This document shows positions 25,200 through 31,595 of a stretch of DNA of 64,000 bases, one piece after another. This DNA is from Prillingera fragicola (Eukaryota > Basidiomycota > Tremellomycetes > Trichosporonales > Trichosporonaceae), in contig BEDY01000009.1 of the NCBI GenBank assembly GCA_002335605.1, positions 610,024 to 674,023 of the forward strand, given 5' to 3'. The notes beneath the pieces were generated by a model, which worked only from the letters and a program-made list of their open reading frames with translations, did no database searches and had not been told where the DNA came from. The translations under genes and the position numbers were made by a program. The stretch's first letter is position 1; each line of letters begins with the position of its first letter.

Positions 25200-28100
25200 C
25201 TAGATATTCGGCGACATCCAATCATACTTTGTCCACTTGTCAATCTCGCTAATCTCCCCAGCGACGTTACGCGCCTCGGCCCAGATCCACAGCTTGGCCA
25301 TGGCCCAGACGTTGCCCCTGGGGGTCGCCGAGATTGCCTCGCGGGTACCCATCTGGCGTCCGAGCTGGCGCATGATGGGGAGCGCAGACTTGAAGAGGTC
25401 CATGTCCGGGTCGAGCTGCCTGCCAATGCCCTCGAGCAGCAGGATGGAGATGACCGTGTTGACAAAGTCGCCTTCGAGCTTGACGTGGTGCTGCCTCACT
25501 GCGGTGAGGACGTCGGTGAGAATGTCGGAAATCTTAATCTTGGCGAGAGAAAAGGTCTTGGATTTGACCGACAGCACGAGGTGCTGCATCTTGAGCGCAA
25601 ACGTCTCTTCATCGATCGCCAGGTCCGGGTGGCGACACCGCTCGACCATGAGCTTGCCGGCCTTGTAGCCGTCAAACTCGGCGACGGCCTGGAACAGGTC
25701 CAGAAAGTTGCGCCGGTTGACCTCGTTGAGCGAGGTGACGAGACCGGCGTCAATGAAGATTAGCTGGGGGACGAATCCCGCAGCGCTGAGCTGCTCGAGA
25801 CGCTCGAGCCACAGGTCGGGGGTGTGCGCAAGCGTCTTGAGCTCGTGAACGAGATTGGTCTCTGAGATCGACTCCATAGGAATCGGCGACGGCGGCGGCG
25901 CGTGGACACCCTGCAGCCTGTCGATGAGGGGACCGATAATGTGGTTTGTCGTGGGCTTGACAAAGCGCACCATAATGTTTCCAGGATGCAGGTCGCCGTG
26001 GGTCCAGTTGTCGAGCAGCAGCATCTCGAGGAAAGCGTCCAGACCAATGTTGGCAATCTTCTCGTCGTACGGTCCGCCCCCGTTGGCCAAAAAGTACTTG
26101 AGCGGCAGGGCATCTTCGTATTCTTCAATGAGCACATCCTTGGCCGCAGCAACAGTGCGGTTGGGACCAAGGCGGATAGGACGAGGGAACGTCACAATCT
26201 TGGAACGCTTCCTAAAGTTCTCGATAAAGTGGTCCAGGTTTGAGCCCTCGACACGCAGGTCGAGCTGCTGGTTCATCATGCCGCCAAAGGCCTCGACTTC
26301 CTCGGGAAGCGACAGCCACTCCATGCCGGGTAGGGCGTTGAGAATGTTGGCAAAGATCGACATGATGGCAATGTCGCGGCGGACAGTCTTGCGCACACGC
26401 GGGTGCAGCACCTTGATGGCCACGGTGCTCGCTATGCGCAGGTCAGAGTCGAGCGGGTTCGACGGCGTAGCAACGTCCTCGAGGGTCGTGTCCTTGTCGC
26501 CTCCAGTCAGGATTTCCGGCCGCAATTTGGCAGTGTACACCTGCGCAATGGCGCCGCAACCGATGGGCGTCTCGTCAAACTCTTCGAATATTTCGTCAAA
26601 CGTCAGACCGAATGCCTTTTCAATCACACGCTTGGTGTGTCGGAAAGAGTGTGGCGTGTTGTTCGAGTGCAACTTGGACATTTTGGTGCACAGAGCGGCA
26701 GGGAAGAGGTCTGCGCGCGAAGCTGCCCACTGGCCGAGCTTGATGAACGAGGGTCCAGCGCGCTCCATCTGCTTGACGAGGAAACCGTACCACCACACCG
26801 CACCCCAGTTATCCTCGGGCTCCTCGACGGGCTTTCCGCGCTTGCGCTTGGGCGGCGAGCCGACCATGAGCATGGGGGCGGTGATGATGACGGGGCCGAA
26901 TAGGATGGCAAGGTGGATAAAGCGCAGGAACGTGAGGAAGGGCTCGAGAATATAGTTTTTGAAGAAGTAGACAGGGCCGAAGCGGGGCTCGTTGGCGGAT
27001 CCCACGGGGTAGTCGTCGGCAGCGGTGCGCTCTTGGACAGGAATCAAGTGCTCGCCCATGGGGTGCGGCGAGTCGTTGAGCGTGGGGCGCTTAAAGTAGA
27101 GCAGCAGAGCCATACCAAGACCGGCAAAGATGAGGAGACCACGCCCACCTCCAGCATCGTGGTGACCGTCGCCGTTCGAAGAAACCGTTCCACCATTCAT
27201 GGCCATGTGCCCGCCACTGGGAGGGTTGCCGATACCGCCGAGCGAGCGGTTCAGGCGCTCAACAAAGCGGCCGCTGGCGCCATTTTCCAGCGCCTCTAGG
27301 GATGACGAACGACGCTGAGGCGGTCCCCTAGCCTCGAGATCCTTGATGTCCTGCGCACGTCTCTTGATACCAGCCCAGACGTTCTCGCGCAGCACGTCGC
27401 CGCGGACTCGGTCAAGCTCCTTTTCGAGAGAGTACAAACCGCGGCGAGCAGGCGGGGGAGCCTGCATATTCATCTTGTAGACCATGTTGTTAATTTGCTT
27501 GATATTCTCTTCATGAAACTTGCGCTCCTTGGCTTCGAATGCCTCGTCACGGCCAGGAACGGCGTGCGACGGCGGCATGGGGTGAATGCCGTGGGAAGAG
27601 AGCACGGAGCGGACAACGTGCTTGGTGTAGGTCTCGAGGAGCAGAGAGCGGAAGGCGTTGAGAGACGAGTCGAGCGAGTTTTGCATCTCAATCCATGGGG
27701 GAAGAGCTCCCTGCCGCTTGATAATGCGATTCCTGTCTGTCAGCGTCGGCTACACTCTGCGGTGGCTTACATCTGGAGTTCACCAAGAGCAATGTGCGGG
27801 TTCTTGGACTCGGGATCGTCGACGAGGGCCGCGCCGCGACCCTTGACGTCGGCAAAGAATCCAGCATCCTTTGCACTCTGTATGCGTTCCTCGACGAGAT
27901 TGGCCCACGCTCGCATGCCGCTTCCGCGGCCCTTTGCGCCGCCAAGCACTGAGCTACCGCGCAGCTGGCGGTTGCCCGCAAACTGTTCGTTCTCAGAGCC
28001 AACGTCGGTCATGTCGCCATCCTGCACACCCAAACGGTAGTCGATGGCGCCCTCCCGCGCACGGCCGAGACGGCCTTGGACGCGGTGAGAGCGGCGGGCA

Positions 28101-28750
28101 TCACGGACGCGAGCGAGAGTCTTGCTGTCGGGGTTGTTAGGGAGGCGGAGTTCGAGATCGTTGGCGAGGTCATCGGCACTGGCAGGCTTGTACAAGAAGG
28201 AACCATACTTGATGGACGGGGCGTGAGACTGATCTTGCTTGTCGCCAGTGTAGGTAGCGTGCCATGGACGGTGGAGGTGCGGCGGGACGGATGTACGGTG
28301 AGGAGAGCCTTCAGGGGAGTAGAGATCAATGTGTTCTGGGTCGTTGTTGACGACGGGGTGGCGCGGTTGCATGTCAATGTTCTTCATCCACTTGGCGATG
28401 CGCTCTTCGGCAGCATTGTCCTTGATGCCTTCCCCTGTGCGATGCGGCGGGTGAGCGTCGACGAGCATCCGAAGCACCGAGTCGGCCTGGGACTCGTCGC
28501 CGGTCCAGATGGGTCCCTGGGTCTGGACGAGGTGCTGGCGGTTGGCCATTGCCTTTGCTTCTGCTGCCTCTTCCCTCGCCGCATCTGCAAAGAGCTTTGC
28601 CGAGCCTGTGAGGGTAGGTTGTTGCTGCTGGGCTGGCGTGTCGGCGGCGTCATCCTTCCGAGGTAGCGTAGCTTTGGAGTGAGCTGCCCTGCATCCAGTT
28701 GTGAGCCATTTTGTGGAGGCGAGCAGAACTCGGCTCCTCATTGGCATCAT
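25200..28750 (-). CDS. DUF1992 (DNAJC28-like) - ABC1/UbiB atypical kinase fusion
   Basis: Predicted 1,170-residue mitochondrial protein. The N-terminus (MMPMRSRVLLASTKWL) resembles a presequence. A DUF1992 domain begins near residue 284 (NLVEERIQSAKDAGFF, GRG, NRIIKRQGALPPWIEMQ) and its usual C-terminal helices (RRGLYSLEKELDRVR) follow. A linker, a membrane segment near 525-540 (LLIFAGLGMALLLYF) and a second hydrophobic stretch lead into an ABC1 kinase-like domain: FIKLGQ near 656-661, PIGCGAIAQVY, HGDLHPGNIMV and FIDAGL. The GCGA loop resembles ADCK2/yeast Cqd1 rather than Coq8. Yeast Cqd1 affects coenzyme Q distribution. One 38-nt intron (27770-27733) splits DUF1992; the second exon runs without a stop from DUF1992 through the kinase, so the fusion is seen directly. 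These domains are normally on separate proteins. Confidence 0.85.
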
Positions 28751-29432
28751 GCTGGCTGCGTTGTGGGCGATGTCAGGTAGTAAGAGTAGAAGAATGAACA
28801 AGGAGGAGGAGGAAATGATGCGGGGGGTCGCTAAAAGTGATGCTGCGGGAAAAGGCGGATCGGCGTCATTGTTTCAGATTACGTAAGTGTTATCAAGTGA
28901 CGTCAAATGCCAACAATGTCACCGCAAGGAGGCCTAGACAGGTGCTCGAGGCTTGTAGATGGCTTGTATGCCTGCAAGGTGAAGAGAACGTCTCTAGATG
29001 TACAGAGTGTATGTATGCATGCATGCATTTCTCGCAGGAGGCAGCACCTTCCTAGACAGCAACTGCCACCACACAGCTCTCCACGCGATAAGAGGTCTGG
29101 CCCACCACGCGTCCCTGAACACGTGGCCAGGTGTTGTATTTGATTCCGTTTGATCCCGCAGCGTAAACACTGGGTGTACACGTCATTGCTGGGTATTTTT
29201 TTCCCAAAAATACTTCCGTATCAGTCATAAATTTCTGTGCCACCAGCAGTGCTCCCCCCGTCGGCGGTCGCAGCGTGCCCCGCGCTCGGTGGGATGTTCA
29301 GATTTTACATTCACTCTTCTCCTCTTGGTGGTCGGGAAAGCCAAAGCACACTCATCCAGCAGCGACTCTTCCCACCACAGACAACACTGGTGTATTCTTT
29401 TATCTCCTTCTCCCACAAAAAACACAGCAGAC
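28751..29432. promoter_or_regulatory. Divergent promoter region upstream of IMP dehydrogenase
   Basis: A 682-bp region between divergent genes. It contains CACGTG at 29120-29125 and an AT-rich hairpin at 29193-29213 (GTATTTTT, loop TTCCC, AAAAATAC). CT-rich sequence precedes the IMP dehydrogenase ATG, as is common in highly expressed fungal genes. No coding potential seen. Confidence 0.5.
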
Positions 29433-31328
29433 ATGTCTCCCAACGCTGACTCTGGCAACAACGTCAACGCCCCCGCGCGTCCGTCTGCCCTCCTTGATGC
29501 CAGCAAGGCTCTCGAGCACCTTGCCGAGTACCCCCGTGGCGACGGTCTCTCGCTTGCCGAGCTCATGGACTCGCGCAAGAACGGTGGCCTCACCTACAAC
29601 GACTTTCTCATGCTCCCAGGTCACATTGACTTTCCCGTGAGCTTGGGCATTGGCCGCCGCCGCCGCCGGCAGGCAGAGGTGCTGACAAATCCTTCTTGTA
29701 GGCTTCCGAGGTGTCGCTCCAGACTCGTGTGACGCGCAACATTGTGCTCAACGCCCCCCTCCTCTCGTCGCCCATGGACACTGTCACCGAGGACCGGTTC
29801 GTCTGATTTGTCACCCTTTCAGAATCGCCACTAACGTCGCGTCCAGCATGGCTATTGCCCTTGCCCTCCACGGTGGTCTTGGTATCATCCACCACAACTG
29901 CTCGGCTGAGGAGCAGGCTGCCATGGTCCGCAAGGTCAAGAAGTACGAGAACGGTTTCATCACCGACCCCGTGTGCCTCGGCCCCGATGGTGTTGTCGGC
30001 GAGTGAGTCTATTGATAGCGAGCGCGCCGTGATTCCATTCTGACCCGCAAAGTGTCCTGAAGGTCAAGGCCAGGCTCGGTTTCTGTGGTGTCCCCATCAC
30101 CGGTGAGTAGCTCAGTGTCTGAGCTCACGCGCACAAGGCCCGTGCGCGCGAGTGTCAGGGCACGCGACCGTCACACGACACTGACATGGTACCAGACTCC
30201 GGCAAGATTGGCGGCAAGCTGCTTGGTATCGTCACTGGCCGTGACGTCCAGTTCCGCAAGGAGGACACCCCCCTCCGTGAGGTCATGACCAACGACGTTG
30301 TCACTGGCGATGCCGGCATCTCGCTCGAGCAGGCCAACACTATTATCCGCGACTCGAAGAAGGGCAAGCTCCCTATCGTTGACGCCTCTGGCAACCTTGT
30401 CTCGCTCGTCGCTCGTTCCGACTTGCTCAAGAACCAGAACTACCCCCTGGCCTCCAAGGTGCCCTCGTCCAAGCAGCTCTACTGCGGTGCCGCTATCGGC
30501 ACCCGCCCTGGAGACCGCGACCGCCTCAAGCTCCTCGTCGAGGCTGGTCTTGACGTTGTCGTCCTCGACTCGTCGCAGGGCAACTCGGTCTACCAGATCG
30601 AGTTTATCAAGTGGATCAAGCAAGAGTTCCCCAAGCTCGAGGTCATTGCTGGCAACGTTGTCACCCGTGAGCAGGCCGCCCAGCTTATTGTTGCTGGCGC
30701 CGACGGTCTCCGTATCGGCATGGGCTCTGGCTCGATCTGCATCACCCAGGAGGTCATGGCCGTTGGCCGTCCCCAGGGAACTGCCGTCTACGCTGTCTCC
30801 GAGTTTGCCAGCCGCTTTGGCGTCCCCACCATTGCCGACGGCGGTATCGGCAACATTGGCCACATTGCCAAGGCCATTTCGCTCGGCGCCTCGGCCGTCA
30901 TGATGGGAGGCATGCTCGCGGGCACTACCGAGTCGCCCGGAGAGTACTTTTACCACGAGGGCAAGCGCGTCAAGCTCTACCGCGGCATGGGCTCGATCGA
31001 GGCCATGGAGCACACGGCCAAGCCCGGCGCTGTCGCCACTGCCGCCAACAATGCCGCCACTGCGCGCTACTTTTCCGAGGCCGACACGGTCAAGGTCGCC
31101 CAGGGTGTCTCGGGTGACGTTGCCGACAAGGGCAGTGTCAACAAGTTTGCCCCCTACCTCTACACTGGCCTGCAGCACTCGCTCCAGGACTCTGGTGTCC
31201 GTTCCATTACCGCCCTCCAGGAGGGATGCCGTAACGGCTCGGTCCGCTTTGAGCTCCGTACGGCCTCGGCTCAGCTCGAGGGTGGCGTCCACGGCCTCAA
31301 CTCGTACACCAAGCGCCTCTTTGCTTAA
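29433..31328 (+). CDS. IMD: Inosine-5'-monophosphate dehydrogenase
   Basis: Predicted 545-residue cytosolic enzyme that oxidises IMP to XMP with NAD, the rate-limiting step of guanine nucleotide synthesis and the target of mycophenolic acid. Motifs: [32 protein letters not shown], a CBS-domain pair near residues 120-240 ([20 protein letters not shown]), [20 protein letters not shown] with the catalytic Cys, the flap [10 protein letters not shown] and C-terminal LQHSLQDSG. Four introns are inferred: 29637-29701, 29797-29846 (donor GTTCGT), 30003-30052 and 30103-30195. All fall in the 5' third; the last exon carries two thirds of the protein. Family length is usually 510-545, so the model is complete. 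Confidence 0.96.
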
Positions 31329-31595
31329 GCGAGCTGTTGCAAGCGGCTGGAGTTTGATGACGGTGTGAAATCGCACAGGGAGAAAGGAGGATTCGTCTGG
31401 TGATACAAGCCACGACGCGATAGACACGGTAGAGCCCTGCGGTGGACGTACTGTTCCGCCCGGGCTGGCATTGATGTACTATATGCATGATTGGTACAAC
31501 TCGAGTGCTGCGCACGTCGTGGTAGTGGCTGGTGTGTGAATGCTAACAGAACAAAACATGCGAGGAGACCACCAAAGAAACGAGAGAGCTAGCGA
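31329..31595. other. Short convergent spacer
   Basis: The 3' ends of IMP dehydrogenase and cyclin C face each other across 267 bp. Presumably 3' UTRs and polyadenylation signals; nothing else seen. Confidence 0.6.

Follow-up and report, generated by a model that had tools for sequence, protein, structure and literature searches.

The locus raises the question of whether one gene in the window, the 64,000-nucleotide stretch of Prillingera fragicola DNA analyzed here, encodes a single protein in which a DUF1992 module is joined to an ABC1/UbiB kinase-like domain of the Cqd1/ADCK2 type, and what the two halves might do together. The initial annotation had placed such a fusion at 25200-28750 and had guessed a product of about 130 kDa. 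Both ends prove exact, with the ATG at 28750 and the stop codon at 25200, and the two-exon gene, which like all of its features discussed below lies on the minus strand, gives a spliced product of 1170 residues and 130.2 kDa. Exon 1 (28750-27771) begins with the ATG, and exon 2 (27732-25200) includes the stop codon; between them is a 38-nt intron (GTAAGC...ACAG, 27770-27733) that lies inside codon 327 and splits the DUF1992 domain. We infer the splicing of this intron from the sequence; an alternative acceptor four bases upstream was rejected because it leads into a stop. Exon 2 had been described as free of stops, and it is indeed open throughout its 849 codons from stop to stop. Third-position GC content lies between 0.67 and 0.84 in each of the 12 blocks of 100 codons into which the gene was divided, linker included. 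On the plus strand, a divergent IMP dehydrogenase gene lies at about 29430-31330 (start placed by eye; the ORF at 30123-31325 matches PF00478 with an E-value of 6.6e-95 and has a CBS domain), the starts of the two genes being roughly 0.7 kb apart.

The intron is supported by the DUF1992 domain that it interrupts (DJC28_CD, PF09350; residues 285-355, 27648-27898). In the spliced protein, this domain is matched from position 1 to 70 of 70 with an E-value of 1.3e-15 and 57.7 bits against a cut-off of 27, whereas exon 1 alone matches positions 1-36 with 19.0 bits and exon 2 alone positions 42-70 with 25.6 bits, both under the cut-off; a match of this strength is thus reached only after splicing. 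The domain had been assigned to exon 2, which encodes part of it, but it is not confined to that exon. Stand-alone fungal DUF1992 proteins can likewise be aligned with the part of exon 1 that precedes the domain, and 12 such proteins from Agaricomycetes cover, when aligned jointly, most of residues 1-450 (27363-28750), which we refer to as the DUF1992-protein half. Residues 285-450 are 55-69% identical to the window protein in seven fusion homologues, and named stand-alone DUF1992 proteins are 33-38% identical to its N-terminal half. The first 25 residues (28676-28750) contain four Lys/Arg and no acidic residue, and an acidic residue is likewise missing from this stretch in 22 of 25 fusions, window protein counted, suggesting a presequence-like N-terminus that may direct the protein to mitochondria. 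One listed DUF1992 protein, P0246 of Blastosporella zonata, also has PF03443 and is probably two merged gene models.

The fusion is real, and both Tremellales and Trichosporonales have conserved it. When 5.8 billion proteins were searched and about 8,000 candidates scored, 945 matches were obtained, of which the best 120 were examined: 25 are full-length fusions (52-63% identity, 96-100% query coverage), all of them with both PF03109 and PF09350, 14 more are partial or truncated fusions, and the remaining 81 are kinases of about 650-820 residues, none with PF09350. Among the matches listed, full-length fusions occur in the Trichosporonales genera Cutaneotrichosporon, Vanrija, and Cryptotrichosporon and in the Tremellales genera Kockovaella, Kwoniella, Cryptococcus (including a 60-member C. 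neoformans cluster), Tremella (two entries, one species), and Naematelia, as well as in one further Tremellales species and one metagenome protein. The junction (residues 451-540) is crossed by 18 of the 18 partial or truncated predicted proteins compared, which comprise the 14 listed and four from another search and include one truncated gene model. Moreover, the linker of the window gene contains neither a stop nor a separating intron, and the fused relatives do not carry two genes at that locus. The fusion that had been proposed therefore stands. Three pairs of pieces, each with one piece from exon 1 and one from exon 2, lie on contigs identical in size; one such pair breaks at the splice site of the window gene (327/331), while P0125/P0026 and P0129/P0024 break near residue 290, indicating that the position of the DUF1992 intron differs between relatives. 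We saw no re-separated DUF1992/Cqd1 pair among the listed matches from this clade.

In the P. fragicola genome (20.2 Mb, 17 contigs), a stand-alone DUF1992 query matched only the two exons of the fusion gene, and a stand-alone Cqd1-type query returned the fusion gene at 6.1e-237 and one other match, 27% identical, at an E-value of 6.5e-5; no second Cqd1-like gene was found in this search, which very short exons could escape. With no second gene for either half in evidence, both functions seem to rest on the fusion gene.

In the Agaricomycetes listed, DUF1992 and Cqd1-type sequences are two separate proteins, as the initial annotation had held to be normal, and Mrakia and Phaffia (Cystofilobasidiales, a third order of the same class as the two fusion-bearing orders) have a stand-alone kinase; no stand-alone DUF1992 protein from Cystofilobasidiales appeared among the best 120 of 451 matches. 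When Agaricomycete species were paired by eye, a pair being both stand-alone proteins listed under one species name with the longest contig per cluster, the two genes lay on contigs unequal in size in 31 of 31 pairs (Dichomitus squalens, Lentinus tigrinus, Lentinula edodes, and L. raphanica were left out because strains or clusters were mixed). The genes therefore do not look adjacent in the Agaricomycetes compared; joining them probably took a relocation in addition to read-through, and on the basis of these species we rejected simple read-through of neighboring genes. In trees of either half, all fusions fall on the same side of a branch supported at 100/100; neither tree is rooted from outside. 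The tree of the UbiB half comprises 25 fusions, counting the window protein, and 14 stand-alone proteins (two of the 16 chosen were dropped, their motif being unmatched), and that of the DUF1992 half comprises 25 fusions and 18 stand-alone proteins and has long branches. The simplest reading of these trees would be one join before the divergence of Tremellales and Trichosporonales that has been retained since. To judge from the alignments, the parts joined are a whole DUF1992 protein with its presequence-like start and a Cqd1 that lacks its own presequence region and begins at about the first hydrophobic segment.

The linker between them (residues 451-521, 27150-27362) is partly Gly/Ser-rich and hardly present in stand-alone proteins, residues 451-520 being almost empty in the joint alignment for stand-alone DUF1992 and Cqd1-type proteins alike. 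It is 49-87 residues long across the fusions and only 10-51% identical to that of the window protein in seven homologues, and this fast evolution fits a flexible spacer and a cleaved spacer equally well. An internal start in the linker was rejected because the Met residues of the window protein (about 503 and 505) vary among the fusions in an alignment read by eye. Downstream, a membrane segment had been noted; a hydrophobic segment exists there, but it is one of two, H1 (residues 522-540, 27093-27149) and H2 (residues 599-617, 26862-26918), and both have counterparts at similar spacing in stand-alone kinases. The position and hydrophobicity of H1 are retained in fusions and stand-alone Cqd1 while its sequence is not (19-62% identity in seven fusion homologues), and H2 is more hydrophobic than H1 in most rows. 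The median KD of H1 is 1.54 in 25 fusions versus 1.29 in 75 stand-alone proteins (those with the anchor motif among 81 given), a comparison between related rows and hence not an independent test; for H2, the median is 2.40 in stand-alone proteins versus 2.02 in fusions. Matched by spacing rather than by alignment, H2 is the likely counterpart of the transmembrane segment predicted at residues 125-141 of yeast Cqd1, for which a presequence is also predicted at residues 1-15 (PMC10214851).

The C-terminal half (residues 571-1170, 25203-27002) is Cqd1/ADCK2-like by ABC1 match and alignment. PF03109 is found in the spliced protein with an E-value of 3.3e-37 and 128.4 bits against a cut-off of 22.9, and 16 stand-alone Cqd1-type proteins fill these residues almost completely in the joint alignment. 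The motifs of the ABC1 core, which had been called complete, were found: KLGQ (residues 658-661, 26730-26741), GCGAIAQV at residue 718, VAIK at 765-767, the catalytic-loop motif HGDLHPGN (residues 905-912, 25977-26000), and FIDAGL (residues 986-991, 25740-25757). We take FIDAGL to be the DFG-equivalent. The Lys, Glu, Asp/Asn, and Asp that mark the kinase-like motifs of the UbiB/ABC1 family are present as well, presumably in the same roles. Nine motif residues examined are invariant in 25 fusions and 16 stand-alone proteins apart from two changes: a single fusion shows D-to-E, and a single stand-alone protein shows L-to-M at the x of KxGQ, a variable position. Residues 571-1170 are 67-75% identical in seven fusion homologues, and the Phaffia stand-alone kinase is 61% identical to the UbiB half. 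This Phaffia protein matches the fusion locus at 6.1e-237 and has no match at E <= 1 at the Coq8-like locus of the P. fragicola genome (C3:1519596-1520312), and the fusion groups with stand-alone proteins, including a Mrakia protein named Cqd1p, apart from the Coq8-like gene. The latter has KLGQ and AAASIGQV motifs. A UbiB-type fold is seen in an AF2 model of the homologue P0001, whose best matches among solved structures in Foldseek are ABC1 proteins and COQ8A (E-values of 5.5e-7 to 1.6e-5 versus 0.04 for the next); the model is only fair, with a mean pLDDT of 65.8 and a C-terminal part mostly below 55, and would tell nothing reliable about contacts between the halves. The KxGQ motif (26741-26730) varies together with fusion state, reading KLGQ in 25 of 25 fusions and, in the 75 stand-alone basidiomycete kinases with a motif match (six of the 81 given had none), KLAQ in 69, KLSQ or KMSQ in five, and KLGQ in one. 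One 790-residue fusion, P0034 of Cutaneotrichosporon sp. HIS471, has a match that ends at about residue 762 in the kinase N-lobe and is probably a gene-model error.

How, then, might the two halves be arranged? For yeast Cqd1, a location in the inner membrane has been described, with the C-terminal part reaching into the intermembrane space (PMC10214851; PMC8346625), and the protein is reported to take part in CoQ/phospholipid homeostasis (PMC8346625). Because yeast Cqd1 faces the intermembrane space, the inner membrane probably separates the two halves of the fusion: DUF1992 lies N-terminal to both hydrophobic segments and would be expected in the matrix, provided that the chain still crosses the membrane an odd number of times. 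If both segments crossed, the kinase would be in the matrix instead. We consider it fairly probable that the fusion acts as one polypeptide in which a matrix DUF1992 module is tethered to an intermembrane-space UbiB half. In this model, the N-terminal presequence would target the polypeptide to mitochondria, the helical DUF1992 half would end up in the matrix, and a hydrophobic segment would halt transfer within the inner membrane, leaving the UbiB half in the intermembrane space to act like yeast Cqd1 in coenzyme Q/lipid distribution while the linker would tie the matrix module to the membrane site. We infer the targeting, the topology, the activity, and the tether linking both functions, and the coenzyme Q/lipid role would be transferred from yeast Cqd1 by homology.

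Of what had been proposed initially, a true conserved fusion of a DNAJC28-type and an ADCK2/Cqd1-type protein thus holds, and the suggestion that both act in the same step we carry forward as hypothesis: a layout across the membrane would be a poor fit to the simplest form of it and would fit anchoring, sensing, or cross-membrane coordination. Functional coupling of the halves is no more than a good, testable hypothesis; it could consist in anchoring across the membrane or in shared dosage and import only, or there could be none.

Other explanations have to be weighed against the tether, and they are not mutually exclusive, as a neutral fusion could share the same layout. The chief alternative, which we take seriously although we judge it less likely, is that mitochondria import a single precursor and cleave it, within the linker or at H1, into free matrix DUF1992 and mature Cqd1, so that the fusion would secure only co-expression and a shared presequence. 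The variable length and sequence of the linker and a Cqd1 half that keeps H1 without a presequence region would agree with cleavage, as would the migration of yeast Cqd1-3xHA at 66 kDa versus 74-76 kDa calculated (PMC10214851), which may reflect removal beyond the short presequence but may also be abnormal migration; the junction, however, is intact in the 25 listed full-length fusions, with no re-separated pair seen in the listed clade matches. That drift fixed a functionally meaningless fusion, whose halves work like their unfused relatives, we regard as doubtful: both halves are conserved while the linker between them is not, and no new conserved linker element is seen across the fusions as a whole, as would be expected of a neutral join, whereas its long retention without re-separation seen and the move that probably had to accompany read-through speak for a function, albeit in a manner compatible with drift.

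It is improbable that both hydrophobic segments cross, or neither does, placing DUF1992 and kinase together in the matrix, where they would act on the same complex in line with the same-step idea of the initial annotation. The somewhat higher hydrophobicity of H1 in fusions, measured on related rows, points in this direction; both segments are nevertheless present in stand-alone proteins too, in which H2 is the more hydrophobic, and the C-terminus of yeast Cqd1 is placed in the intermembrane space (PMC10214851; PMC8346625). Hardly credible is an annotation artefact in which two adjacent genes have separate transcripts. A single open exon spans the junction in the window, every partial or truncated predicted protein compared crosses it, no Met is conserved in the linker, and homologous gene models exist in many species; we therefore reject the two-gene reading. 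The tethered polypeptide remains our preferred reading.

Within the reach of our search, the fusion is already in databases as gene models with both Pfam domains and is undescribed in print: titles and abstract openings among the matches listed contained no description of the DUF1992-UbiB architecture, and among these matches the literature naming DUF1992, as far as its retrieved text goes, consists of two J-protein gene surveys in animals and describes no function for it. The fusion offers a concrete geometry to test, with a matrix module, a membrane anchor, and an intermembrane-space ATPase. Its retention in two fungal orders, with no further copy of either gene found in this genome, hints in the manner of a Rosetta stone at a partnership between DNAJC28-type and ADCK2-type proteins and thereby gives a testable clue for DUF1992. 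Laboratory species exist, since Cryptococcus, Kwoniella, Tremella, Vanrija, and Cutaneotrichosporon are among the genera listed with this architecture. It is tempting to speculate, though we think it rather unlikely, that DUF1992 is a general matrix-side partner of Cqd1/ADCK2, such that this clade would have a permanent trans-inner-membrane machine with an intermembrane-space UbiB ATPase moving coenzyme Q or lipid, while elsewhere the unfused proteins, including DNAJC28 and ADCK2, would cooperate as separate chains.

Among known systems, animal DNAJC28 shares the DJC28_CD domain, which Pfam names after it, and appears as a mitochondrial gene in a study using the MitoCarta3.0 gene list, in the retrieved text of that article (PMC13025475). 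Stand-alone fungal PF09350 proteins of Agaricomycetes, mostly 440-480 residues long, can be aligned with the fusion over a region that starts with the N-terminal blocks SAKLFADA and W-G-E...VLRMLVDKYKPLR and extends as far as the last helix of the core, but where they have a C-terminal tail the fusion has the linker and Cqd1. DNAJC28 has a J domain (PF00226) N-terminal to DUF1992; unlike it, neither the fusion (Pfam matches at E 0.001 for the spliced protein and E 10 for either exon) nor the stand-alone fungal DUF1992 protein P0205 was found to contain one. COQ8 has an A-rich loop; unlike COQ8A/ADCK3, the fusion reads GCGAIAQV. COQ8 is also described as a matrix-facing protein of CoQ biosynthesis (PMC8346625). 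The closest likeness is to yeast Cqd1 (YPL109C, S. cerevisiae)/ADCK2, with which the fusion shares a hydrophobic segment ahead of the kinase-like domain and the same ABC1 motifs; unlike in yeast Cqd1, a 450-residue DUF1992 protein and a linker replace the short presequence region.
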